From NCBI GenBank assembly GCA_947448795.1, contig CANFOZ010000009.1, positions 1 to 57,798 of the forward strand: a DNA stretch of 57,798 bases. Reading direction: 5' to 3'. Within the stretch, counting starts at the first letter, position 1, and each line of letters starts with the position of its first letter. The notes under the pieces were generated by a model. The model worked only from the letters and a program-made list of their open reading frames with translations, searched no databases and was not told where the DNA came from. Origin of the DNA: Bacteroidota bacterium (GTDB taxonomy: Bacteria > Bacteroidota > Bacteroidia > AKYH767-A > JAHEYN01). The translations under genes were made by a program, and so were the position numbers. Shown here piece after piece: positions 5,746 through 52,466 of the stretch.

Positions 5746-7178
5746 TTCGCACGCTTGGATAAAAAGTCAAATAATAAACGAACACCTACTCCGGTACCAC
5801 CTTTCACACGATAGGCACTGTTACTATGCAAAAAACTTGGACCTGCGATGTCAAAGTGCATCCAAGGATATTTCACAAAGCGCTGTAGGAATTTACCTGC
5901 GGTTATCGACCCGCCGTAAGGGCCACCGATATTTTTAATATCTGCTATATCGGACTTTATTAGCTCGTCGTACTCTTCCCAGATAGGGAATTCTGCAAGG
6001 CGCTCATACACCTGTTCGCCACTTGCTTTCAGGCTGTCTTTTGTTTTCTCGTCGGCAGTGCCCATACATACTATACCGAATGTTCCTATTGCTGCTACTG
6101 CAGCACCGGTAAGGGTTGCAAGGTCAATAACGAGTTCAGGCTTGAACTGTTGAGCGAAACTCAATGCATCACCCAAAATCAAACGCCCCTCTGCATCGGT
6201 GTTAAGCACCTCTACAGTAATACCGTTGTGCATGGTAATGATGTCACCGGGCGTAATCGCATTGCCCGAAGGACGGTTGTCGGTAGCTGGCACCAAGGCA
6301 ATGACATGCACTGGAAGCTTGGCTTTGGCAATAGCGAACAGCGTGCAAGCAACAGCAGCAGCACCGGCCATATCGCTTTTCATGTAGTCCATGGAATTGG
6401 CGGTAGGCTTCAAACTCAAACCACCTGTATCATACACCACGCCCTTACCCACCAAAACGATAGGTTGCTTGTTTTTCGCCCCTTTTGGCTTGTATTCCAT
6501 AACCGAGAAGGTCGGATGATCAACGCTACCGAAGTTAACCGCTAGCAAACCACCCATCTTCAAACTTTCAATCTTGGATTTATTAAAAACCTCAACACGA
6601 AACCCTGCTTCTTTACCCAACTTCTGAAACTCCTTGGCCAGTTGTACGGCATTCAAATGCAACACAGGCGTATTCACTAAATCACGAGCGCGACAGGTGG
6701 CATCAACTAGAATATGCAATAGACTGATATCGGATGCTTTGATTTTAGTGCTCAGCACGCCGATCGCACGCAGCTCGTTTTTATCTTTTGCAGATTTGCG
6801 ATAACGCAGAAACTGATAATTCGACAAGGCCATGCCTTCAATAAAGGCCAGTGTCTCCGTGGCGTTATCCAAGGCATCCACCACAGTCACCTTTTCGGTT
6901 TTAAAGCGCGCGAAGCAATGGTGTGCTTGCTGACCAGCACGTCGGCACTCTTCGAGCGTGAGGTGGGCGGCCGATTTTTTTTCAAGGAAATAGATATAAA
7001 CCCATCTTTTCAAGTGATTGATCAGCAGGTGGTTCCGCTCTTTTTTATGCTCGGCCTGAATGTATGCGGCCTCAGCGGCAGACAATCCATAATCGCTCCA
7101 CCGTGTCTTCCCGTCAGAAAGCAGCACCAAGGAGTCATCGGCAGATGCCTTACTGACCTGTTTTATTGCTAAATCCAT
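5742..7178 (-). CDS. Leucyl aminopeptidase, M17 family
   Basis: Cytosolic di-metal aminopeptidase that releases N-terminal residues from peptides. The catalytic C-terminal domain shows VGKGVVYDTGGLSLKP (metal/lysine region), KSDMAGAAAV and the signature NTDAEGRLILGDAL. I place the start at 7178 (MDLAIKQVSK), giving 478 aa. An in-frame upstream Met at 7226 would add 16 residues that look unlike the family N-terminus. It is translationally coupled with pdxA by a 4-base overlap. Divergent from mqnC, with about 150 bases between the two start codons. Confidence 0.93.
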   Translation of the reverse strand: MDLAIKQVSKASADDSLVLLSDGKTRWSDYGLSAAEAAYIQAEHKKERNHLLINHLKRWVYIYFLEKKSAAHLTLEECRRAGQQAHHCFARFKTEKVTVVDALDNATETLAFIEGMALSNYQFLRYRKSAKDKNELRAIGVLSTKIKASDISLLHILVDATCRARDLVNTPVLHLNAVQLAKEFQKLGKEAGFRVEVFNKSKIESLKMGGLLAVNFGSVDHPTFSVMEYKPKGAKNKQPIVLVGKGVVYDTGGLSLKPTANSMDYMKSDMAGAAAVACTLFAIAKAKLPVHVIALVPATDNRPSGNAITPGDIITMHNGITVEVLNTDAEGRLILGDALSFAQQFKPELVIDLATLTGAAVAAIGTFGIVCMGTADEKTKDSLKASGEQVYERLAEFPIWEEYDELIKSDIADIKNIGGPYGGSITAGKFLQRFVKYPWMHFDIAGPSFLHSNSAYRVKGGTGVGVRLLFDFLSKRAK

Positions 7179-7325
7179 GATAATGTGGTATTTTTGAAGC
7201 GGTAAATGTAAATAATTAATTAACAATCCTTTGTCTCTAAGGCAGTTTTTTTCAGCTGCTTCGCATTTCTTTCCAAAATTGCTTGACCTACAAGTAGGAT
7301 AATGGCAGACCGATAAATTCAGATC

Positions 7326-8450
7326 ATGACAACGAAAGCACTTTTAAACCGCGCCCTAGCCTTCGATTTTCTTTCCGCAGAAGAAGGACAATTTCTATTC
7401 TTAAACGCAGCCACCTCCGAGCTGATGGAAGTCGCCCACGAATTGCGCATGAAGCAGGTTCCAGCTAAAAAAGTTACCTGGATCATCGACCGCAATGTAA
7501 ACACTACCAATGTGTGTATTGCCAATTGTAAATTCTGCAACTTCTACCGCATTCCTGGCCATGCCGATGCGTACATCACGAGTATCCCTGAATACAAACG
7601 CAAGATCGAAGAAACCTTTCGATACGGCGGCGAGCAGTTGCTGCTTCAAGGAGGCCACCATCCCGATCTGGGCTTGTCCTTTTACACCACTCTTTTTCGC
7701 GAGTTAAAACAGCTCTATCCTACCTTGAAGCTTCATGCACTCGGGCCACCCGAAATCGCCCACATCGCGAAGCTTGAAAAAATGACACACACGGAAGTTT
7801 TGCAAGCCCTGGTAGAATCAGGTCTCGACTCGCTTCCTGGCGCCGGTGCTGAAATACTTAGCGATCGTGTGCGCCGACTTATCTCCAAAGGCAAATGCTC
7901 AGGCCGTGAATGGCTTGATGTTATGCGCGCTGCACACCAGCTCCACATTACCACCTCGGGCACGATGATGCTCGGGCATGTGGAGACATTGGAGGAACGC
8001 TTCGAGCACCTTGTGTCGCTACGCCAGGTGCAGAGCGAGAAGCCCGCCGATGCGAAAGGCTTCCTAGCCTTTATCCCTTGGCCCTTCCAAGACGAAGGAA
8101 CCATGCTGAAAAATGTCAAAAACATTCGAAACGAAGTTGGTGCCGACGAATACATTCGAACCATTGCATTGAGCCGTATCATGCTGCCGAACATAAAAAA
8201 CATTCAAGCCTCATGGCTCACGGTGGGCAAGCAGGTAGCGCAAGTATGCTTGCATGCGGGCGCTAATGATTTTGGGTCGATCATGATTGAAGAGAATGTG
8301 GTTTCTGCTGCTGGAGCACCACACCGCTTTACATCAGCCGGGATACAAGAAGCCATACGAGAAGCCGGCTTCGAACCCCAGCTTCGCAATCAGCAATATG
8401 ACTACCGAGAGATGCCTGCAACCATGGAGCAGCAAGTGATCAACTACTAA
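7326..8450 (+). CDS. mqnC: Cyclic dehypoxanthinyl futalosine synthase MqnC (radical SAM)
   Basis: Radical SAM enzyme of the futalosine menaquinone pathway, which cyclises dehypoxanthine futalosine. The cluster motif is CIANCKFCNFYR (CxxxCxxC, about residues 63-74), preceded by the MqnC-type RNVNTTNV. Downstream segments LLQGGHHPDLGL, HALGPPEIAHIAKLE, GLDSLPGAGAEIL and FIPWPFQDEGT fit MqnC better than the sister enzyme MqnE. Length 374 aa is normal. It stands alone; the only other candidate menaquinone gene in the window is ubiX. Its presence implies menaquinone respiration, consistent with the oxidase operon at 43-47 kb. Confidence 0.93.
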   Translation: MTTKALLNRALAFDFLSAEEGQFLFLNAATSELMEVAHELRMKQVPAKKVTWIIDRNVNTTNVCIANCKFCNFYRIPGHADAYITSIPEYKRKIEETFRYGGEQLLLQGGHHPDLGLSFYTTLFRELKQLYPTLKLHALGPPEIAHIAKLEKMTHTEVLQALVESGLDSLPGAGAEILSDRVRRLISKGKCSGREWLDVMRAAHQLHITTSGTMMLGHVETLEERFEHLVSLRQVQSEKPADAKGFLAFIPWPFQDEGTMLKNVKNIRNEVGADEYIRTIALSRIMLPNIKNIQASWLTVGKQVAQVCLHAGANDFGSIMIEENVVSAAGAPHRFTSAGIQEAIREAGFEPQLRNQQYDYREMPATMEQQVINY

Positions 8451-8543
8451 GCTTCTAGACCTTACCTGTCGCCTTTCACCGTTTTTATCAAGGAAAACTC
8501 AGAAGAATTGCTTACTTTAGATGCTTGGCTTTAATGCCATTTC

Positions 8544-11192
8544 ATGAAAAGACTGCTTTTTTTATTGCTCCTGATCGGATTCACTTCCGTGGCTTTCGCT
8601 ACCCACAACAAAGCCGGAGAGATAACCTATCGCCATATCTCAGGGCTGACCTACGAAGTTACCATTACCACCTACACTGATTCGGGTGCAAATGCCGACC
8701 GCAATCAGCTGGAAGTGTTTTGGGGCGACATGTCAAGCGACTCACTCGGCCGTCACAATGGACCTCCGAACGGAGCTGGGTTTCATGATGGCGAGCTCCT
8801 TATTGGTTATCACACCAAAAAAAATATCTATACAGGGACGCACACCTATCCAGGCAGCGCCACGTATGTGATCTCCATGCAGGATTTAAATCGCGTGGAC
8901 GCAATCATCAACATGCCCAACTCGGTGAATATCCCTTTTTACATCGAAACCGTGTTAGTCACCAACGGTGCAATCAACCCCGAAAACAGCTCGCCGGTGC
9001 TGAATAACCCTGCCGTAGACAGAGCCTGTGTGAATAAGCTTTTCGTGCATAACCCCTGGGCTGTCGATCCGGATGGAGATAGCCTTTCCTACGAGCTTAG
9101 TTCCTGCGAATGGAACCACGACTCCGTTCCTCCTGGTTATAGCATTCCGCCCGGCGTGAGTATTAACTCGGTAACAGGCGATTTTGTTTGGAATACCCCC
9201 ACAAGCATCGGATGGTTTAGTTTTGCTTTTCGAGTTATCGAGTGGCGCAATGGTTTTAAAATCGGGTATGTCACCAGAGATATGCTTGTGATTGTACAAT
9301 CCTGTCCCGACGAGAATCCGCCGGTGATTCAGCCTCCTGCTAACCTCTGCGTATCCGCCGGTGATTCAGCCAACTTCTCCATTCACGCAACCGACCCTGA
9401 CTTAACCATAACAGGCAATCCAAGAGACAGCATCACCCTTAGTTCAACGGGAGCAACATACAACCTGCCGAATGCATCGGTGTTCACTCAAACCGTTAAA
9501 CTAAAAGGCTCCGCAGACGGTGTGTTCCAATGGAAAACCTCCTGTGCTGAAGTGCGCAAGCAGCCCTATGCGGTTTATGTAAAAGCCGTCGACAGCTACC
9601 CCGACCATCTTGCTGATTATAAAACAGTAAGCATCACGGTAGTAGGGCCTGCCCCTCAAAACCCAACGGCAGCGGCCTTTGGAACATCTATTTTCCTAAC
9701 TTGGGAAGCAAGTCAATGCAGCCAAGCAATTGGGTACAAAATATACCGGCGCAACGGCTTTTACACAGGTACCATAAGCTGTCCTTGCAATACCGGAGCG
9801 CCTGATGGTGGAGGCTTTGTAGAAATTATGCAGGTATCAGGACTGAATACAACCACCTACACCGATGATAACAATGGCGAAGGATTGATTCATGGAAACG
9901 ACTACTGCTACCTTATCGTTGCCGTTTACCCGGATGGCGCCTTGAGTTGTGCATCGCCACAGGTTTGTGCCGAATTGAAAAAAGATTTACCCGTTATTAC
10001 CAATGTTGATATACTAAGCACTGCTGCGGTTTCTGGAAGCATCTATCTGGCTTGGTCGCCACCCACCGAAATCGACACGATTTTAAATCCTCCGCCCTAT
10101 AAAATCAAGCTGATGCGCTCCGACAACGTGGGCATAAGTTATCAAATAGCCACCGAAATCAGCAATGTGTTTGTCGACACCACCTTCATAGATACCTACA
10201 ACACAGCGAGTGGAAAACTGATTTACAAAGCGATGCTCGTTAACAGCACAACTGCTGAACCGGAGCACCTATTGGGTTCTTCACACACCGCCTCGTCGAT
10301 TCTTTTGACCATCTCCCCTACCGATAAACGCCTCGATCTTAGCTGGAGCGAAGATGTGCCATGGACAAACGGGAGCTATGATGTGTTTAGACTCAATCCC
10401 TCCACCACGTTGTATGACTCTATTGGCAGGACAAGCAGTCGTGCTTTTTCCGATACCGGCTTGGTAAATGGAGTCGCCTATTGCTATGTGGTTCGAAGCA
10501 ATGGCGCCTATTCGGGCAGCGGCTTTGTGAATCCAATTGAAAACCGCTCGCAGCAAGCATGTGCATCGCCGATCGACAATGTAGCTCCGTGCAGCCCTGT
10601 CCTGCATGTACTCAACGATTGCGCAGAGTATAATAACACCTTGTCGTGGAACAACCCGAACCTTACTTGCGCAAATGATGTAATGAGCTACCTCGTTTAT
10701 TATAGTCCCACGCTAACGGGTGCGCCCTTGCAAATTGCAAGCATTAGTTCGGCTGAAGACACCGTTTTTCTGCATGAAAAACTTTTAACCACAAGTGCTG
10801 GATGCTATACAGTATCAGCTGTCGACTCAGCAGGAAACGAAAGTGAGCAAAGCGCTCCTGTGTGTGTCGACAACTGCCCTGAATACACACTTCCAAATGT
10901 CTTTACTCCCGATGGAAATGGCATCAACGACCTCTTCAAACCTTTTCCATATCGCTATGTCGAATCCATCGATTTGCATATATACAACCGATGGGGTGTC
11001 GACGTATTTCACACCACCGATCCAGAGGTAAATTGGGACGGAAGAAGTGAGTCAAGCAAAAAAGAATGTTCGGAAGGCGTTTACTTCTACACCTGCAAGG
11101 TTAACACCATACGGCTCGAAGGCATCGTGCCCGTTCAACTTCGCGGCTTCTTTCACTTGGTCAACAGCCAAGACAATGGCCCAGTAAAATAA
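8544..11192 (+). CDS. Secreted multidomain protein with type B gliding-motility C-terminal sorting domain
   Basis: Large exported protein of 882 aa with a signal peptide at residues 1-19 (MKRLLFLLLLIGFTSVAFA). The mature start THNKAGEITYRH, with an Ig/cadherin-like N-terminal domain, belongs to a recurrent Bacteroidota surface-protein type. Fibronectin-III-like modules occupy about residues 375-780 (for example NPTAAAFGTSIFLTWEAS and DKRLDLSWSEDV). The C-terminus has NVFTPDGNGINDLF and HIYNRWGVDVF, the signature of type B cargo of the type IX secretion system. Paired cysteines in the modules suggest disulfides. Predicted location is the cell surface or medium; the ligand is unknown. It precedes ribE by 11 bases, which may only reflect compact packing. 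Confidence 0.9.
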   Translation: MKRLLFLLLLIGFTSVAFATHNKAGEITYRHISGLTYEVTITTYTDSGANADRNQLEVFWGDMSSDSLGRHNGPPNGAGFHDGELLIGYHTKKNIYTGTHTYPGSATYVISMQDLNRVDAIINMPNSVNIPFYIETVLVTNGAINPENSSPVLNNPAVDRACVNKLFVHNPWAVDPDGDSLSYELSSCEWNHDSVPPGYSIPPGVSINSVTGDFVWNTPTSIGWFSFAFRVIEWRNGFKIGYVTRDMLVIVQSCPDENPPVIQPPANLCVSAGDSANFSIHATDPDLTITGNPRDSITLSSTGATYNLPNASVFTQTVKLKGSADGVFQWKTSCAEVRKQPYAVYVKAVDSYPDHLADYKTVSITVVGPAPQNPTAAAFGTSIFLTWEASQCSQAIGYKIYRRNGFYTGTISCPCNTGAPDGGGFVEIMQVSGLNTTTYTDDNNGEGLIHGNDYCYLIVAVYPDGALSCASPQVCAELKKDLPVITNVDILSTAAVSGSIYLAWSPPTEIDTILNPPPYKIKLMRSDNVGISYQIATEISNVFVDTTFIDTYNTASGKLIYKAMLVNSTTAEPEHLLGSSHTASSILLTISPTDKRLDLSWSEDVPWTNGSYDVFRLNPSTTLYDSIGRTSSRAFSDTGLVNGVAYCYVVRSNGAYSGSGFVNPIENRSQQACASPIDNVAPCSPVLHVLNDCAEYNNTLSWNNPNLTCANDVMSYLVYYSPTLTGAPLQIASISSAEDTVFLHEKLLTTSAGCYTVSAVDSAGNESEQSAPVCVDNCPEYTLPNVFTPDGNGINDLFKPFPYRYVESIDLHIYNRWGVDVFHTTDPEVNWDGRSESSKKECSEGVYFYTCKVNTIRLEGIVPVQLRGFFHLVNSQDNGPVK

Positions 11193-11976: not shown

Positions 11977-12058
11977 TTAAAAGATTACTGTTCTAAAAAA
12001 TTAAACTTAAAATTCAGCATCGAGTACTGCTAATAGCATGATCCGATGCACACCATAC

Positions 12059-14191
12059 ATGGCAAAAAAAAACACAAAAGAAACGGAGTGTAACCCCTAC
12101 GACCTGCAGAATATAACACGACTTATTCTTAAAATCTTTCAGGACATCCCGCGCCCGCTGAACTACAAGCAGGTGGCTAAGCAGCTCGGGCATCATGGCT
12201 TAGAACCAGGGCGTGATGTGGTTATTCAGTGCCTTTTAAAACTTGAGGCCTCCGAAGAAATCATGCTGATAGATCATTTCAAATATCGGCTGCGCCCAAA
12301 GCGTACCTATCTTGAAGGGTATATCGAGCTTACGCAAAAAGGATCTGGCTACGTTACTGTGGAAGGCCTTGAGAAAGACATTTTTATATCCCCAATAAAA
12401 ACGGCCAATGCCTTAAACGGCGACAAAGTAAAGATCATGCTTTATGACAGCGGTCGCGACCGGCAAGATGCCGAAGTGGTGGATGTGCTCGAGCGGGTCA
12501 AAACAGACTATGCAGGCATCATCGAAATCACGCCACGCTTCGCCTTTCTGAAGCCCGACAACAACAAGATGCCGGTGGATATCTTCATTCCGCTGAATCA
12601 TTTGAATAATGCGCAGCAGGGCGAAAAGGTGGTAGCACAGATTATCGAATGGAAGAAAGGCGAAAAAAATCCGACTGGAAAAATCATTCATGTGCTCGGC
12701 ATGCCGGGCGAAAATGACACCGAAATGCATGCGATTCTTTCGGAATACGGCCTCCCGCTCTCCTTTCCAAAGCTTGTTGAAGCAGAAGCCGATACGATCC
12801 CCGAAACAATCCCCGAAGAAGAAATAGCACGCCGACGCGACTTCCGTGGCACCACCACCTTCACTATCGACCCCGAGGATGCGAAGGATTTTGATGATGC
12901 GCTCTCCATAAAAAAACTTAAAAACGGCCTCTACGAAATCGGCGTTCACATTGCCGATGTAACCCATTACTTGCCCGAAGGATCGGTGATGGATAAGGAA
13001 GCCTTCGAACGGGCAACATCTATTTATCTCGTGGACCGCGTTATTCCCATGCTTCCGGAGAAACTATCCAACCATGTCTGCTCGCTGCGTCCCAACGAAG
13101 ATAAACTGTGTTTTTCGGCCGTCTTTCACATGAATGAGGATGGCAAGATTTCGGACGAATGGTTTGGTCGTACCGTCATTCATTCCATCAAACGCTTCAC
13201 CTACGAAGAAGCGCAAAGCGTAATCGAAACACAAGAAGGTCCTTTGAAAGAAGAGATACTGCTTATGGACAGCATCGCCAAAACACTGCGCGCTGAACGC
13301 TTTAAAAAAGGGGCCATTAGCTTCGAAAAGACAGAAGTGAAATTCCGTTTGGATGAGCGCGGAAATCCACTGAGCGTGTACACAAAAGAAAACAAGGACT
13401 CCAATAAGTTGATCGAAGAGTTTATGCTGCTAGCCAATCGCAAAGTAGCCGAATTCGCGAGCAAAAAAGCAGGGATAAAACGCACCTTCGTGTATCGGGT
13501 GCACGATGTGCCCGTGGCCGACAAACTGTTGGCCTTTACAGAGTTTGCTGGCAAGTTTGGATATCGCGTGAACACGGGCAACGAGAAAGAGATCGCGAGC
13601 TCGCTTAACAAACTCATGAAAGATGTGCGTGGAAAAAAAGAGCAGAATGTGCTCGAGCAATTGGCGATCCGCACGATGGCCAAAGCCATTTACACCACCG
13701 ACAACATCGGCCACTACGGCTTGGCCTTCGAATACTACAGCCACTTCACCTCACCGATCCGTCGTTATCCGGATGTGATGGTGCACCGCATCCTGCAACA
13801 CTATCTCGATGGCAAAGGGTCGGTGAACGCAAAGAATTTTGAGCTCAAATGCAAGCATGCTACCGACATGGAGATCAAGGCCTCACATGCCGAACGCGAT
13901 TCGATTAAATTCAAACAGGTGCAGTTTCTGCAAAGCCGCGTTGGACAGATTTTCGACGGCATCGTCAGCGGAGTTACCGAATGGGGTATGTTTGTGGAGA
14001 TCTCCGAAAACAAATGCGAAGGCATGATCCGCCTGCGCGACATGCGCGACGACTACTACCTGTTCGACGAACGCAATTTCTGCATTTCCGGGAAGCGCAA
14101 ACGCAAGAAGTTTCAACTCGGTGATAGCGTGAAAGTAAAAATCATTCGCGCCGACTTGCTGAAAAGACAGGTAGATATGGAGCTGGTATAA
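12059..14191 (+). CDS. rnr: Ribonuclease R
   Basis: Processive 3'-5' exoribonuclease of the RNB family that degrades structured RNA in the cytoplasm. Cold-shock-like OB domains occupy the N-terminal third. The catalytic RNB domain begins near TFTIDPEDAKDFDDALS with its metal-binding aspartates. An S1 domain (GQIFDGIVSGVTEWGMFVEI) lies at the C-terminus. I prefer ATG 12059 (MAKKNTKE, 710 aa); an in-frame ATG at 12038 would add seven residues. The gene ends at a strong hairpin shared with the convergent M16 peptidase. Confidence 0.96.
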   Translation: MAKKNTKETECNPYDLQNITRLILKIFQDIPRPLNYKQVAKQLGHHGLEPGRDVVIQCLLKLEASEEIMLIDHFKYRLRPKRTYLEGYIELTQKGSGYVTVEGLEKDIFISPIKTANALNGDKVKIMLYDSGRDRQDAEVVDVLERVKTDYAGIIEITPRFAFLKPDNNKMPVDIFIPLNHLNNAQQGEKVVAQIIEWKKGEKNPTGKIIHVLGMPGENDTEMHAILSEYGLPLSFPKLVEAEADTIPETIPEEEIARRRDFRGTTTFTIDPEDAKDFDDALSIKKLKNGLYEIGVHIADVTHYLPEGSVMDKEAFERATSIYLVDRVIPMLPEKLSNHVCSLRPNEDKLCFSAVFHMNEDGKISDEWFGRTVIHSIKRFTYEEAQSVIETQEGPLKEEILLMDSIAKTLRAERFKKGAISFEKTEVKFRLDERGNPLSVYTKENKDSNKLIEEFMLLANRKVAEFASKKAGIKRTFVYRVHDVPVADKLLAFTEFAGKFGYRVNTGNEKEIASSLNKLMKDVRGKKEQNVLEQLAIRTMAKAIYTTDNIGHYGLAFEYYSHFTSPIRRYPDVMVHRILQHYLDGKGSVNAKNFELKCKHATDMEIKASHAERDSIKFKQVQFLQSRVGQIFDGIVSGVTEWGMFVEISENKCEGMIRLRDMRDDYYLFDERNFCISGKRKRKKFQLGDSVKVKIIRADLLKRQVDMELV

Positions 14192-17136: not shown

Positions 17137-18378
17137 TTATTCGTGTGCACGATGAACGGCTTTCGCAATCAGCCGCTGCCCCCCGCTCCACACCTCAAAG
17201 AAATAGGTGCCTGTTGCTACTGCTTTTGTTTCTAAAACAAAGGCGTCGCCGTTTCTAAAGCAGGTAAATGCGGCATTCACTTCGCGACCAAGGATATCGC
17301 GAACGATAACGCGTGCAGCTGGATCTAAGACACTAGTGCACTGTACCATTATTCGATCAGAAAACGGATTCGGCTGCACACTAAGTTTAGGCCTGGGTTT
17401 TATCTCGGCTACGCCGAAATAACCACTAATCAAACACGGCACCTCTTCAACACCCCATACACTATCGGTGTTCATGCTGATGTAGTGCACAGGAATGCTT
17501 CCGTTGAATTCAGCGTCGGGCGTAAGCATAATCCCGTAACGCTCACCAGGAGAAGTTTCCAAGGTGTCAGCATCCACAGCCATTGGCAAAGGGCGCCCGT
17601 CAGAATCGATGATGCGCGCATGAAAAGAGGATGGAAAAATAATTCGATTGTCGAAAAAACCGATGTTCGCTACTCGCAGATAGATGCGCTCACCTACCGC
17701 ACCGTTAATGCGCGTAGAGTCTTCATCCAGCTGCTGATGCGAATGTCCGTTCACCAAAAAATAATCGGGACGATAGGGAGGAATAGCAATCGTATGGGTG
17801 ATCGTATCTTCCACCGGAATCCCATCATGCCAAGAGCGGTCAATCTCGGAAGTAAGCCAATGCTTTGCCTGGTCGTATGCCGGACCACCCGTCCATGCTG
17901 TCTTGCCGCCATCCGCAGGACGTACGATTACCATGCCGTACATCCCCATCTGCACATGCACCACATCGGCCACATGGCAATGGTATAAATAGGTTCCGGC
18001 ATGACTGCATATCACTGTGTAGGTTGTATCTTGCCCATGACTCAACATGAACGATGTCGAAGGATCACCATCGTTTTGGGTATCCGCATCGAGTCCATGC
18101 AAGTGAATGGAATGATGGTCATTTTGAGAAATACTATACGCATGCACCACTAAGGTATCGCCTTCGTTGACAAACAAGGTTGGACCTGGAATAGTTGGAC
18201 TTGCACTCAGCATGGGCGCAAAACCAAAGATGCGCGTCACAACACCATCCCATAGCTGAATAGTGCCGACATTGCTGCGCAAGTAAATCTTGCAGGTTAC
18301 TTTATGCTGCGCAAAAGCAGAAGACAAGCTCACGAAAAGGACCGCAACTAAAAAGAAAATCGGTTTGATTTTACGCAT
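17137..18378 (-). CDS. Secreted multicopper-oxidase-like protein with type A sorting domain
   Basis: A 413-residue protein with signal peptide MRKIKPIFFLVAVLFVSLSSAFA. The first cupredoxin domain holds HLH (His 92/94) and the HCH motif (His 133, Cys 134, His 135), followed by His 141 and Met 144/146. These are plausible type 1 and trinuclear copper ligands. A second cupredoxin-like domain (about 185-325) has NGHSHQQ and few ligands. Residues from about 335 (LSVQPNPFSDRI ... GTYFFEVWSGGQ) are a type A sorting domain of type IX secretion. It starts 2 bases after the preceding cupredoxin gene, so the two are co-transcribed and may act as one split oxidase. Substrate unknown. Confidence 0.82.
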   Translation of the reverse strand: MRKIKPIFFLVAVLFVSLSSAFAQHKVTCKIYLRSNVGTIQLWDGVVTRIFGFAPMLSASPTIPGPTLFVNEGDTLVVHAYSISQNDHHSIHLHGLDADTQNDGDPSTSFMLSHGQDTTYTVICSHAGTYLYHCHVADVVHVQMGMYGMVIVRPADGGKTAWTGGPAYDQAKHWLTSEIDRSWHDGIPVEDTITHTIAIPPYRPDYFLVNGHSHQQLDEDSTRINGAVGERIYLRVANIGFFDNRIIFPSSFHARIIDSDGRPLPMAVDADTLETSPGERYGIMLTPDAEFNGSIPVHYISMNTDSVWGVEEVPCLISGYFGVAEIKPRPKLSVQPNPFSDRIMVQCTSVLDPAARVIVRDILGREVNAAFTCFRNGDAFVLETKAVATGTYFFEVWSGGQRLIAKAVHRAHE

Positions 18379-18380
18379 GC

Positions 18381-19247
18381 TTAATGAATATTCATGATGG
18401 TAAACATGCCGTTCGGATGAACACCGCCACCAGATACGGCAACCAAGTTGTGATCATGCACACTGTAACGACCCAATTTATCCGGAGTGATTTCTATGAC
18501 TACGCTCTCCATACTTTTAATTGGAAAGGTATCCTTGCTCGCATTCACTTGGATATTGCCTGCGCTGCTTCGTATAACAGTACCATGAAATCCATGGATA
18601 TGGATCGAATGTTTTGATTGGCCCGTGTTGCTTATATAGATGCGATAAGGCTGTCCTAACGACACATCAACCGTAGCCAAAGAATCGTTCTGAATATCCG
18701 GATAGCTTACACCATTTACCGTAAAAAAATCCGGGTCGTACACACTCCAATCGACAGCATTGCCAAGGGCTATCGCATTGTTATAGCTACTTTGATGCTC
18801 CTTTAAATTCCAACTGTAATTAAAAGATGTAGCTGCACTTAGCACCAAAATTTGTCCTGCCAATCCCATGTATCGATTGCTCGGCGCATCCGAAGGATCG
18901 TAATAAATAAAAGCCCCATCCTGCGGAAAATACCAAGTATGCTGCACAGAATCAGAAGGAGCGATGGTTAATAGGCCTGGAAAACCTTTAATCGCAAAGT
19001 CGTGAAAAGCGGTGTCCGTGTTATGCACATTCAGGCTCAAGGAATCGCCACTGTTAATTTGAAGAGTCGCATTAATTCCACTAAACAAAACGCTATCGTT
19101 ATAAGATAGAACAGGGAATGTGGTGCCGCTAACGGTTTGCATAAGGCCGCGGTTGATGAATACGTCAACATGCACCGTAGCGGCCCTGCCAACAAGGCAA
19201 TGCAGCATAATGACAAAAACAACGAGTGCGCACTTTCGCATGCTCAA
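18381..19247 (-). CDS. Exported two-domain cupredoxin protein lacking the type 1 copper cysteine
   Basis: A 288-residue exported protein (signal peptide up to about residue 22) with two cupredoxin domains resembling multicopper oxidases. The C-terminal domain has HIH (His 216/218) and HDH (264-266) followed by His 277 and Met 281. In normal oxidases the second motif is HCH; here the cysteine is replaced by Asp 265, so a classical type 1 copper site cannot form. There is no sorting domain, unlike the next gene. It lies 13 bases after the CstB-like gene and 2 bases before the sorting-domain cupredoxin gene. It may complement that protein structurally or bind copper only at the histidines. Confidence 0.75.
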   Translation of the reverse strand: MSMRKCALVVFVIMLHCLVGRAATVHVDVFINRGLMQTVSGTTFPVLSYNDSVLFSGINATLQINSGDSLSLNVHNTDTAFHDFAIKGFPGLLTIAPSDSVQHTWYFPQDGAFIYYDPSDAPSNRYMGLAGQILVLSAATSFNYSWNLKEHQSSYNNAIALGNAVDWSVYDPDFFTVNGVSYPDIQNDSLATVDVSLGQPYRIYISNTGQSKHSIHIHGFHGTVIRSSAGNIQVNASKDTFPIKSMESVVIEITPDKLGRYSVHDHNLVAVSGGGVHPNGMFTIMNIH

Positions 19248-19260
19248 TTTGTGTTGAAAA

Positions 19261-20658
19261 TTAGGCCATATTCAATGTCGGAACAACCACCGTTACATCG
19301 GTGTTTTTTATCTTTCCAAAGCCCCCGTAAACATTCTTCACATTATGAATACCATGGGCCTTAAGAATAGAAACAGCAATCATCGAACGATAACCACCGG
19401 CGCAGTGCACGAGGCATTCCTTACTATGATCGAAGAGGTTCAATTGCGAAGCAAGATCTTGCAAGCCCACAAGCTGCGCGCCTTTGACAAAGCCGCTTTG
19501 AACTTCACCCGGCTTACGAACATCGAGGATGCCGTGTTTTCCATCTTTGCAAAGCGTGGCAAATTCTTCGGGCGTAACGGATGAAACATGATCCATTCCT
19601 TTGCCCGCTGCTACCCAAGTAGCAAATCCACCGTCAAGATACCCAATCACCTTCTCAAAACCGACGCGAGTCATACGAAGAATAGCCTCCGCCTCGGTGC
19701 CCGGAGTGGTTACCAAAACCACTGCGCGATTGAAATCGAGCAGCGTACCCACCCAAACTGCGAACTGTCCATCTAAGCCGATATTGATGGCTCCTTTAAT
19801 GAAGCCTTGCTCAAACTCGTCTGCTTTTCGCGCATCTAAAACGATCGCCCCGTGTGCCACTTCATGCTCAAGCTCGGCTACAGTTAAGGATTTATTATTT
19901 CGAGCTACCACGGCCTCCACATTTTCATAGCCCATCTTGTTGATGCGTGCATCAGCGAAGAAATAAGCCGGTGGCTTTGGAATATCTGCTGTTAGCGTCT
20001 TGATAAACTCCTCACGCGTTGCCGCTTTGAGCGCGTAGTTCGTGCTCTTCTGATGACCAATAGTACTCCAGGTTTCTTTGCCAATGTTCTTTCCACAGGC
20101 AGAACCAGGACCGTGTGCAGGATATACCAACACATCGTCGGCAAGCGGTTTAATGTATTTTGCGAGCGAATCGTAAAGCATACCCGCCATATCGCTTGGC
20201 GTTAGCTTTACCGATGCATCCAACAAATCGGGGCGACCCACATCACCGACAAACAAGGTATCACCGGTAAAGATGCAATGCTCCTTGCCTGTCTCATCAG
20301 AAAGCAAGAAGCAAGATGATTCTTGGGTGTGCCCCGGTGTGTGCAATACTTTGATCGTTAATTTTCCAAGATGAAACACCTCTCCATCCTCGGCAACGTG
20401 ACTTTCGAAGCCTGTTTTGGCCGTAGGACCGTATATAATTGGAGCCCCTGTTTGCTTCGACAGATCGAGGTGACCAGAAACAAAGTCCGCGTGAAAATGC
20501 GTTTCGAAGATATACTTAATGGTCGCATTACGCTCCTTGGCGATAGCCAGGTAAGGTGCTGTTTCGCGCATCGGGTCGATGATGGCTGCGACGCCCTCAG
20601 ACTCGATATAATAGGCCGCTTCTGCAAGGCAATTGGTGTAAAGTTGCTGGATATACAT
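19261..20658 (-). CDS. CstB-like persulfide dioxygenase fused to two rhodanese domains
   Basis: A cytoplasmic enzyme expected to oxidise glutathione-type or low-molecular-weight persulfides to sulfite and to move sulfane sulfur. Residues 1-245 form a metallo-beta-lactamase fold with THFHADFVSGH (His 54, His 56, Asp 58, His 63), HTPGHT and FTGDTLFVGDVGRPD, typical of the ETHE1/CstB non-haem iron site. Two rhodanese domains follow. The first has no cysteine in its active loop (VLVTTPGTEAEA); the second has HCAGGYRS with Cys 419. This dioxygenase, dead rhodanese, live rhodanese order is that of CstB. It is the first gene of an operon with the two cupredoxins. Confidence 0.9.
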   Translation of the reverse strand: MYIQQLYTNCLAEAAYYIESEGVAAIIDPMRETAPYLAIAKERNATIKYIFETHFHADFVSGHLDLSKQTGAPIIYGPTAKTGFESHVAEDGEVFHLGKLTIKVLHTPGHTQESSCFLLSDETGKEHCIFTGDTLFVGDVGRPDLLDASVKLTPSDMAGMLYDSLAKYIKPLADDVLVYPAHGPGSACGKNIGKETWSTIGHQKSTNYALKAATREEFIKTLTADIPKPPAYFFADARINKMGYENVEAVVARNNKSLTVAELEHEVAHGAIVLDARKADEFEQGFIKGAINIGLDGQFAVWVGTLLDFNRAVVLVTTPGTEAEAILRMTRVGFEKVIGYLDGGFATWVAAGKGMDHVSSVTPEEFATLCKDGKHGILDVRKPGEVQSGFVKGAQLVGLQDLASQLNLFDHSKECLVHCAGGYRSMIAVSILKAHGIHNVKNVYGGFGKIKNTDVTVVVPTLNMA

Positions 20659-20675
20659 GGTGTGAATTTATCATT

Positions 20676-20707
20676 CAAAGGTACGCATTAAACCGCTTTT
20701 GGTCCAA
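20676..20707 (-). promoter_or_regulatory. Promoter of the CstB-like/cupredoxin operon
   Basis: On the minus strand TTG (20707-20705) is followed after 21 bases by TACCTTTG (20683-20676), a full match to TAnnTTTG. The operon start codon is at 20658. Confidence 0.5.
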
Positions 20708-24418: not shown

Positions 24419-25270
24419 TTAGTCGTTCGTTTTTTTAATCTGTTTATTATTTCTGCTCCACTCACTCCAAGAGCCAACGTATAAGTTTGGTATTTTCATT
24501 TCCGCATAGTCTAATGATAGTATAGTGTGGCAAGCTGTTACTCCTGAACCACAATGAATTACTATATTTTCAGCATTTATTTCTCCAAATAATGTATCAT
24601 ATTTAGCTCTTAATTCGTTTGGCTTAAGGAATAAACCACTTTCGTCTAAATTTTCCGTAAATGGAATATTTATCGCACCGGGAATGTGTCCTGCAATTAT
24701 ATCTATTGGTTCTGTTTTTCCATCATATCGGTCTTTGTCTCTAACATCAACTATTAAATATTTTGAATTTTGAGATGCTTTTTCAACCTCGTTAATTTTT
24801 ATTGTTGGCAAAGTCCATTGGTCAAATAGATATGGTTCGGAAGTTTTTTTAATGTTTTCAGTTTTCGAACTCATTGGGAAATCTTTTTCTTTTGCATTCA
24901 TTAATCCACCATTTATTACTTGTACTTTTTCGTGTCCAAATGATTTTAGCATCCACCAAAATCGTGCTGAAGCATTTGAGCCATTTTTATCGTCATAAAT
25001 AATAATATGCTTGTCAGCGGAAATGCCAAAATCTGTCAACGTTTTTGCAAAGTTTTCTAGTTCGGGTAATGGGTGGCGTCCACCGTCCGAAAAGTCTGTT
25101 TTAATATCTGCCAATTGAGAATTTAGGTCAACAAAAAAAGCACCTTCTAAATGTTCTGTTTCGTAGTTCGCTTTAGCATTTTTACTATTGCTTACATCGA
25201 ATATCATCACTTCTGGATTTTTGTATATTTTCATTAATTCTTCCACTTCTATTATTGGTGATATTCTCAT
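24419..25270 (-). CDS. Thiosulfate/3-mercaptopyruvate sulfurtransferase, AT-rich and probably acquired
   Basis: A 283-residue cytoplasmic sulfurtransferase with two rhodanese domains. The active-site loop in the C-terminal domain is HCGSGVTACHT, and CGSGVTA is the 3-mercaptopyruvate sulfurtransferase type. Base composition is much more AT-rich than in the neighbours, with many ATA, TTA and AAA codons visible, which points to recent transfer. The stop codon TAA is embedded in GACTAACG, and the upstream flank (minus strand) has GCAAACCGTTGTGC, a cassette-like arrangement described in the findings. It stands between the 13-bp tandem array and the 54-bp tandem array. Confidence 0.92.
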   Translation of the reverse strand: MRISPIIEVEELMKIYKNPEVMIFDVSNSKNAKANYETEHLEGAFFVDLNSQLADIKTDFSDGGRHPLPELENFAKTLTDFGISADKHIIIYDDKNGSNASARFWWMLKSFGHEKVQVINGGLMNAKEKDFPMSSKTENIKKTSEPYLFDQWTLPTIKINEVEKASQNSKYLIVDVRDKDRYDGKTEPIDIIAGHIPGAINIPFTENLDESGLFLKPNELRAKYDTLFGEINAENIVIHCGSGVTACHTILSLDYAEMKIPNLYVGSWSEWSRNNKQIKKTND

Positions 25271-45924: not shown

Positions 45925-45947
45925 GGATTTCCTTGAGCAATCAAACG

Positions 45948-46598
45948 ATGAGTAAAATATCTAGGTGGCAGTTTTTAGGCGTCCTTTTTGCGATCCTATT
46001 ACTGCCATCTTTAGTTTATCTTTTGCTCATAATGGGCAAAAATCACTTCAAACCGCTACCCATCATCGGCGAGCGTGAAGTGGCTGCCAACGGCGATACA
46101 ATTTACCACACCATCCCTCCTTTTCGCTTTCAAAACCAAGAGGGCAAGTTCATCTCCGATACGTTCTACGACGGTAAGATCTACGTGGCCGATTTCTTCT
46201 TCACCAAATGCACCACAATCTGCCCTAAGATGAGCGGCTCGCTGCAGCGTGTTCAGGATAAATTCAAGGCGCAGCGCGACCTTAAGCTTGCCTCTTTCAC
46301 CGTCGATCCAGAAGCCGATTCGGTACCCGTTCTAAGAGCGTACGCCAAACGCTTTATAGTGAATTCAGCAAAATGGAACCTGATGACCGGCAAAAAGGAA
46401 GACCTTTATAAATTAGGGGTCAATGGCTTTCTGCTTCCTGCCCAAGAAGACGCTCTCGATCCAGAAGGCTTTCTGCATAGTGAATATTGTGTGCTCATTG
46501 ACAAACAAAAACGCATACGCAGCATGCGCGATGCCACCGACCCAGCACAGGTTGACACCCTGATCGATGAGATCATGGTTCTTCTCCAAGAAAAATAG
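45948..46598 (+). CDS. SCO family copper chaperone (SenC/PrrC)
   Basis: A 216-residue membrane-anchored thioredoxin-fold protein that delivers copper to the CuA centre of oxidase subunit II. It has an N-terminal anchor (about residues 8-28), the copper motif FFTKCTTICPKM (CxxxC) and the later conserved histidine in GFLHSEYCVLID. The start is ATG 45948 (MSKISRWQF); an in-frame TTG at 45933 is not needed. Its position in the oxidase cluster matches its role. Confidence 0.95.
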   Translation: MSKISRWQFLGVLFAILLLPSLVYLLLIMGKNHFKPLPIIGEREVAANGDTIYHTIPPFRFQNQEGKFISDTFYDGKIYVADFFFTKCTTICPKMSGSLQRVQDKFKAQRDLKLASFTVDPEADSVPVLRAYAKRFIVNSAKWNLMTGKKEDLYKLGVNGFLLPAQEDALDPEGFLHSEYCVLIDKQKRIRSMRDATDPAQVDTLIDEIMVLLQEK

Positions 46599-51530: not shown

Positions 51531-52466
51531 TTAAAGGAGTCGACTTAAAATAACAGTGAGGGAGCCGACCGAGATAATTATCCACAATAAAATACCCAGG
51601 AGAAATGGCTTGAAACCAACGGCCTGCATGGTTTTGCGAGTAAGTCCGGCACCAATGAGAAACAGCGTGAGAGTCAGCCCTTTCTTTGAAGCCAGCACGA
51701 TAAGATGACTCAGCGGCTGCATCGCTGGCAAGAACGTGTTCAAGGCCATGGCCGCCACAAACAAAAAGATAAACCAAGGAATGTTAACCTTACTGGAATT
51801 TTTACGAAAAACAAGGGCGGTTACCAAGGATAAAGGGATGATCCAAAGCGCACGCTCGAGCTTCACGGTGGTAGCAATTTTTAGTGCTTCTTCGCCATAT
51901 TTCTGTGCGGCGCCTACCACCGAGCTTGTGTCGTGTATGGCAATGGCCGACCACAGGCCAAACTGGGCGTTGCTCATGGCAAAATAGTGCCCAATGAAGG
52001 GAAACAAAAGCAGGGCGATGGAGTTTAGAATAAAGACCGTGCCGAGCGAAACCGAAATTTCTTCTTCTTTCGCATCAATCAATGGCGATACGGCAGCGAT
52101 GGCGCTTCCCCCGCAGATGGCGGTGCCTGCGGCAATGAGGTAGGTTATTTTGTCACCGATTTTAAACATCCGGCCAAAGAAAAGTCCGGCCAACATGGTT
52201 ATGCTGATCGATGCGACGGTAAAAATAAATCCTTCCTTCCCGGCCTTCGCAGCTTCAAAAAGATTCATCCCGAAACCCAATCCAACCACACAAACCTGCA
52301 GCAATATTTTTGTAGCTTTCTTGTTGTGTTGGATAAATGGATGACCGATCGTTTGTGACAGGAGTAAGCCTAGCAAAAGCCCGAGTGGTGGGTCGATGAA
52401 AGGCGTTAGACAGGCAATGGCCCCTAGCAGAAAGAGTGCTTTTTTTACATTTTCAGTTAGAACCAT
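51531..52466 (-). CDS. YeiH family (UPF0324) putative sulfate/sulfite exporter
   Basis: A 311-residue inner-membrane protein with about ten hydrophobic segments. Family motifs are GLGFGMNLFEAAKAG, AAGTAICGGSAIAAVSP and AIHDTSSVVGAA. Members have been annotated as sulfate or sulfite exporters, but direct proof is limited. It lies between meaB and a GNAT gene on the same strand (gaps of 18 and 9 bases). A link with the sulfite-producing CstB-like enzyme 31 kb away is possible but inferred. Confidence 0.9.
   Translation of the reverse strand: MVLTENVKKALFLLGAIACLTPFIDPPLGLLLGLLLSQTIGHPFIQHNKKATKILLQVCVVGLGFGMNLFEAAKAGKEGFIFTVASISITMLAGLFFGRMFKIGDKITYLIAAGTAICGGSAIAAVSPLIDAKEEEISVSLGTVFILNSIALLLFPFIGHYFAMSNAQFGLWSAIAIHDTSSVVGAAQKYGEEALKIATTVKLERALWIIPLSLVTALVFRKNSSKVNIPWFIFLFVAAMALNTFLPAMQPLSHLIVLASKKGLTLTLFLIGAGLTRKTMQAVGFKPFLLGILLWIIISVGSLTVILSRLL

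Follow-up and report, generated by a model that had tools for sequence, protein, structure and literature searches.

As far as is known, two-domain multicopper oxidases are built from identical chains. The structures 3g5w and 2zwn, which we take to be a blue copper oxidase of Nitrosomonas europaea and a metagenomic two-domain laccase, both of type C, are the closest solved relatives of the proteins described here. According to two studies, two-domain oxidases are trimers with a cluster built from residues of two protomers (PMC13151041), and residues from two protomers likewise form their trinuclear cluster (PMC3192119). Here we describe two adjacent genes, P2 and P3, that appear to divide such an active site between two different proteins. 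The genes lie in a window of 57,798 nt (the whole stretch of DNA that was analyzed) on contig CANFOZ010000009.1 of a Bacteroidota bacterium (assembly GCA_947448795.1). An original prediction had placed them in one operon with a CstB-like persulfide dioxygenase gene, and its three open reading frames (ORFs) were found where it had put them, all on the minus strand (20658..19261, 19247..18381 and 18378..17137). Based on comparisons with relatives of the pair, we propose that P2 and P3 probably assemble, as its two subunits, into a heteromeric multicopper oxidase derived from a type C two-domain ancestor.

Mirror-image loss of copper ligands

P2 (18381..19241, minus strand; 286 amino acids from an ATG start) and P3 (17137..18378, minus strand; 413 amino acids) encode predicted exported proteins with two cupredoxin domains each. 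Both match Cu-oxidase families in Pfam, which bears out the earlier description of two multicopper-oxidase-like proteins, and both begin with a hydrophobic stretch that reads as a signal. P3 ends in a tail of the type IX secretion system (T9SS) type, and P2 has none.

The reference for the ligand columns was L021, a type C enzyme of 422 amino acids that is intact in a single chain, and we mapped its columns onto 81 P2 and 81 P3 sequences. All eight N-domain ligands (H, H, H, HCH, H, M) are kept by P3 in 80-81/81 rows, the difference being one row cut by a contig end; two contig-end-cut P3 rows (L082 and L104) stayed in this tally. The four C-domain histidines of P3 are replaced, mostly by R/I/S/F/L-type residues, with histidine in at most 3 of 81 rows at any column. 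P2 shows the opposite pattern: its four C-domain histidines are kept in 81/81 rows (a partly circular count, weighed below), and its N-domain type 1 and cluster set is replaced, the column of reference residue C149, for example, being D in 75/81. Traces of the N-domain set persist in P2, with the type 1 histidine position still H in 76/81 rows, without the cysteine, and histidine at single cluster positions in 16/81 and 13/81. The same ligand residues are invariant in 16 pairs that were found by whole-protein search and not by motif.

In the window, the P3 motif HSIHLHG (18097..18114, minus strand) supplies H89 for the type 1 copper and H92 and H94 for the cluster, and a second segment (17941..17982, minus strand) supplies the cluster histidines of H133-C134-H135 and the type 1 ligands C134, H141 and M146. 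A full set of N-domain type 1 ligands (H89, C134, H141 and M146) is therefore present in P3 alone. In the P2 C domain, half of the cluster ligands (H214 and H216) lie in the H211..H216 motif HSIHIHG (18594..18611, minus strand) and the remaining half in H262-D-H264, the motif HDH (18450..18458, minus strand); H211 and H219 are kept as well. Neither polypeptide holds all eight cluster histidines, as four N-domain ones are in P3 and four C-domain ones in P2.

It is strongly supported by these alignments that P2 and P3 together would make up one complete active site, as complementary halves of a type C two-domain oxidase, and the phrase "split secreted copper oxidase" in the original prediction fits the mirror-image loss seen across 81 rows of each protein. 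Because the sole complete site is the P3 N domain set against the P2 C domain, we infer a heteromer.

P2 and P3 occur as a unit

We examined the pair in two partly overlapping samples, with apparently seven of the 15 class regions shared between them. A whole-protein P2 search of a class sample of 395 genomes gave 15 strong matches besides the window genome, and a genome contig collection provided the best 80 of 169 reported P2 relatives. The scan of these 80 loci used patterns covering the P2 C-domain motifs, and P3 was never used for selection. In 80/80 loci, P2 is immediately followed by a P3-type ORF in the same orientation (in L098 as part of the same, frameshifted ORF). Spacing was measured in 79 loci: the genes overlap by four bases (-4) in 45, are spaced at -1 in 14, and lie at most 14 bases apart in all but one.

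Co-occurrence is also strict. P2 and P3 are found together in 16 of the 395 genomes, P2 alone in none and a P3 fragment alone in one (Fisher p 1.4e-27), with P3 called at E<=1e-20 (17/395 genomes). The seventeenth P3 genome (G174) has a fragment of the C-terminal part with a stop codon (L186:4597-5085) and no convincing P2, which reads as a decayed pair. P2 matches at E<=0.001 extend to 27/395 genomes; eleven, with best E values from 2.6e-8 to 6.6e-4, were treated as other multicopper oxidases. Motifs were inspected in five of the eleven (L004, L021, L022, L029 and L031), among them the reference enzyme L021. P2 and P3 are a unit.

By record title, relatives of the pair belong to Flavobacteriales, Crocinitomicaceae, Cytophagales, Sphingobacteriaceae, Saprospirales, Aureispira, one Ignavibacteriae metagenome-assembled genome and others; Lishizhenia tianjinensis (L051) is a culturable species that carries it. 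No P2 was found in the other sampled genomes of the window organism's own order, which makes the distribution patchy. Viral contigs contained no relative. On plasmids, the sole matches were weak ones to haloarchaeal oxidases, at 24-27% identity and never spanning 80% of P2.

Other loci depart from the standard layout. An enlarged pair (L126:3540-6818 and 6831-8873) has P2 as the C-terminal end of a 1092-amino-acid protein and a P3 of 680 amino acids with additional sequence ahead of the sorting tail. A 689-amino-acid ORF joining P2 and P3 (L098/L038; L098:9944-12013) was considered as a natural fusion indicating one enzyme and rejected: a frameshift at a run of G's reads through the end of P2 and leaves the P3 signal peptide inside the ORF, and is probably a sequence or assembly error. 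We also dropped a distance comparison of 78 P2-P3 pairs (r 0.79; L082 and L104 excluded), since linkage alone could explain it.

The same data bear on whether P2 and P3 could be separate, non-catalytic copper binders or carriers, with P3 using its type 1 copper alone for electron transfer. Neither protein by itself has a full cluster, and copper proteins of the MbnP type occur as neighbors (see below), both of which would suit carriers. However, the C-domain histidines of P2 and H92, H94, H133 and H135 of P3 would have no obvious use in a type 1-only protein, yet they are invariant in the 16 pairs, those of P3 being kept in 80-81 of 81 rows, and the strict co-occurrence of the two genes is likewise at odds with independent carriers. 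We consider this alternative unlikely.

Fold and export signals

Sequence profiles of both P2 and P3 rank 3g5w and 2zwn first among solved structures, and both proteins thus have two cupredoxin domains related to these enzymes. An AlphaFold model of P2 shows a confident two-cupredoxin fold (pLDDT 93.6, pTM 0.90), for which Foldseek likewise returned 3g5w (E 5.5e-21) and 2zwn as closest. VIA-align placed 3g5w at Z 25.4 (2.9 A over 254 residues) and the copper nitrite reductase NirK (5zl1) at Z 25.5.

With the NirK fold as close to P2 as 3g5w, the pair might be read as a split copper nitrite reductase and not as an oxidase that reduces O2. The type 2 copper of NirK needs three histidines only, whereas P3 and P2 retain four cluster histidines each, which add up to the eight of an intact type C oxidase. 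The profiles favor 3g5w and 2zwn, and against the NirK family model TIGR02376 (cut-off 296.3) P3 scores 52.8 bits and P2 22.6 bits, both far below membership. We give a split nitrite reductase only a very slight chance.

The T9SS-type sorting tail of P3 (17161..17373, minus strand; residues 336-406) is weak in the window, at 20.7 bits in Pfam (cut-off 27) and 18.6 bits for TIGR04183 (cut-off 23). Across the family, TIGR04183 matches at E<=0.01 in 16/16 P3 members and 0/16 P2. For the type IX sorting domain assigned earlier to one of the two proteins, the window copy of P3 falls below the curated cut-offs while the family as a whole matches.

A model for a heteromeric oxidase

What was observed directly is that the two proteins are homologous, that their ligand patterns mirror each other and that their genes are adjacent and co-occur; the heteromer, its activity, its route out of the cell and its substrate are inferred from them in the following scheme. 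The ancestor would have been a type C two-domain oxidase with its cluster formed where the N domain of a protomer meets the C domain of the adjoining one. After duplication, each copy would have lost the ligand set kept by the other, leaving P3 with the type 1 copper plus the cluster ligands of the N domain and P2 with those of the C domain. P2 would then bind P3, most simply 1:1, as an obligate heteromer with a trinuclear cluster at the interface of the P3 N domain and the P2 C domain, so that each pair would have a single type 1 copper and a single cluster. Substrate electrons would enter at the type 1 copper of P3, and O2 would be reduced to water at the shared cluster. P2, lacking a tail, would leave the cell in complex with P3. 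The physiological substrate may concern copper, for example oxidation of Cu(I) at the cell surface. If P2 indeed exits only with P3, the pair would offer a further test of whether the type IX system moves a complex.

Several points weigh against this scheme. P2-P3 binding, copper content and activity are deduced from the genes, and three equal clusters are impossible in a trimer that contains both subunits, which leaves the stoichiometry unexplained. Counts of the P2 C-domain histidines in the 80 loci are partly circular, as the scan patterns cover these motifs. We found no mention of co-secretion in a T9SS review, and the route of tail-less P2 to the outside is unexplained. A model of both chains as the single L098 ORF was poor (pLDDT 63.7, pTM 0.55) and says nothing about an interface. 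The copper link comes from neighbors in fewer than half of the loci, and many of these loci are related.

For the L098 model, MAFFT aligned either the whole P2 set or the whole P3 set to the incorrect half of the ORF in A4 and in most test mixes; out of many mixes, the alignment kept (A5; 8 P2 and 5 P3 rows) was one of those that placed every row correctly. A structure comparison of this model was not used, given its quality.

A broader reading is conceivable, though as a whole it falls short of probable: the pair might represent a new quaternary class, an obligate heteromer with a cluster shared by mirror-degenerate subunits, which would be widespread among Bacteroidota but overlooked in surveys requiring all four copper motifs in one protein, with P2 carried through the type IX system by P3 and both acting in surface copper handling with MbnP/MbnH-type proteins. 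In the open-licence literature we found no heteromeric, split or bipartite multicopper oxidase of this kind, and nothing on point for T9SS combined with a multicopper oxidase.

Gene neighborhood and a probable link to copper

MbnP-like and MauG-like (MbnP/MbnH-type) genes, named from a Pfam scan of one representative per cluster, occur together in 20/80 loci, and one or both are present in 20 of the 63 loci in which the sequence continues for at least 4 kb past P3. A cluster with an HMA domain is found in 8/80 loci, and another, presumably copper-ATPase-like, in 4/80. The pair loci are related to each other, and these counts are not independent. With MbnP/MbnH-type genes beside it in 20/80 loci, the pair is probably linked to copper in its function. 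MopE, CorA and their partners are described as related pairs with a link to copper, although a paper of 2013 states that no data then tied close MbnP homologues to copper (PMC3621798; PMC3912023).

A neighbor in most loci is a T9SS protein of ~220-245 amino acids with two invariant cysteines (16 sequences aligned), which has a member in 66/80 loci, usually just upstream of P2 (for example L051:9274-9960). A Pfam scan of two members found no family besides the sorting tail. The window genome has one MbnP gene together with one MauG-like gene on a second contig, and one full-length relative of the T9SS protein (L135:7332-8063) on a third, beside a TonB-receptor-like gene instead of P2. Elsewhere in the window, a gene that reads from sequence as SCO1/SenC-like (copper insertion into oxidases; 45933-46598) lies amid respiratory genes.

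The CstB-like gene is a local neighbor

The CstB-like gene (19261..20658, minus strand; 465 amino acids) adjoins P2 and P3 in this genome only. Its protein has a metallo-beta-lactamase domain and two rhodanese domains in Pfam, and its best solved relatives, 3tp9 and 3r2u, match across the whole length. The lactamase HxHxD motif is present (THFHADF at 53), and C188 and C419 align with cysteines of 3r2u, providing the lactamase cysteine and the cysteine of the second rhodanese. The first rhodanese has no cysteine in its active-site loop LVTTPGTEA (residues 315-323) and the second has C419 within CAGGYRS, in agreement with the predicted one dead and one live domain. By sequence the gene is an ordinary member of the CstB/metallo-beta-lactamase-rhodanese persulfide dioxygenases (3r2u, 3tp9), with no conserved tie to P2 or P3. 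A second rhodanese-type (sulfurtransferase-like) gene, read from sequence alone, lies ~4 kb past it (24419-25270).

The original prediction interpreted the three genes as a functional operon in which CstB and the cupredoxins would act jointly, either under sulfide/copper stress or in oxidizing sulfur. In the window genome, the short gaps and the promoter-like box that precedes CstB favor this. P2 and P3 are two bases apart, as first described; the 13 bases given between CstB and P2 hold for an alternative TTG start at 19247 (288 amino acids), and the distance is 19 from the likelier ATG at 19241. The Bacteroidota-type promoter consensus is TTG, 19-21 bases, TAnnTTTG. An exact match, TTG-N21-TACCTTTG (20676..20707, minus strand), lies just upstream of the CstB-like gene, with ~1 exact box expected by chance per window strand. 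A weak box with one mismatch, TTG-N20-TAATTTTC (19256..19286, minus strand), lies 15-22 bases upstream of the P2 ATG, with ~24 such boxes expected per strand by chance; P2 may therefore have its own promoter, which makes the proposal of one promoter for all three genes uncertain. A sigma-70 promoter scan gave no more matches than in shuffled sequence, and no RNA structure above chance was seen at the CstB-P2 junction.

Comparison with other genomes argues strongly against the operon. Within the flanking sequence available, no full-length CstB lies near P2 relatives in any of the 15 class-genome regions or the 80 contig loci (0/15 and 0/80); six single-domain rhodanese or lactamase matches in five of the 80 contig loci are the only CstB-related genes there, and the recurrent neighbors of the pair are the T9SS protein and the MbnP-like and MauG-like genes. 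Conversely, CstB has a strong match (E below 1e-130) in 43/46 genomes of relatives of the window organism, its own included (G014 has no match, G038 and G041 weak ones only), whereas P2 as a query against 60 relatives gave one weak match only. In the CstB flanks of six of these relatives we found no P2, P3 or M16 peptidase; relatives of window gene 52466..51531, presumably YeiH-like, adjoin CstB in three, and relatives of window gene 12038..14191, presumably RNase R-like, lie close by in three.

Since CstB is absent near other pairs and located elsewhere in pair-less relatives, the trio is a local arrangement and the CstB-like gene a chance or local operon neighbor. Adjacency of all three genes, which the original prediction had named as its own test, is not conserved; CstB as a conserved partner is ruled out, and the joint sulfide/copper role is left unsupported. 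We regard the functional three-gene operon as decidedly improbable.

Comparison with known systems

Like P2 and P3, the type C oxidases 3g5w and 2zwn have two cupredoxin domains per chain, with a type 1 copper in the N domain and cluster ligands in HxH/HCH and HxH/HDH motifs; in the pair, these ligands are instead split over two different chains, one of them T9SS-tailed. An intact single-chain type C enzyme occurs in two Bacteroidota loci, L021 and L085. In L085 (L085:14506-15774), a split pair is also present within a few kb of it.

In three- and six-domain multicopper oxidases the cluster lies between the first and last cupredoxin domains. They resemble the pair in placing the cluster between cupredoxin domains and differ in having all domains in a single chain, and according to one study they are monomeric (PMC13151041). 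The window genome itself also encodes a single larger oxidase that carries a T9SS tail and has its Cu-oxidase domains all on the same chain. Heterodimeric fungal laccases also form a laccase from two different chains. The second of these is a small chain not known to be a multicopper oxidase, whereas in the pair both chains are of the multicopper-oxidase type and the active site itself appears to be divided. The active sites of known two-domain oxidases are each shared by copies of a single subunit. In the pair, a homo-oligomer of this kind seems to have become an obligate hetero-oligomer through duplication and complementary loss, a clear example of subfunctionalization that is legible from the metal ligands themselves.

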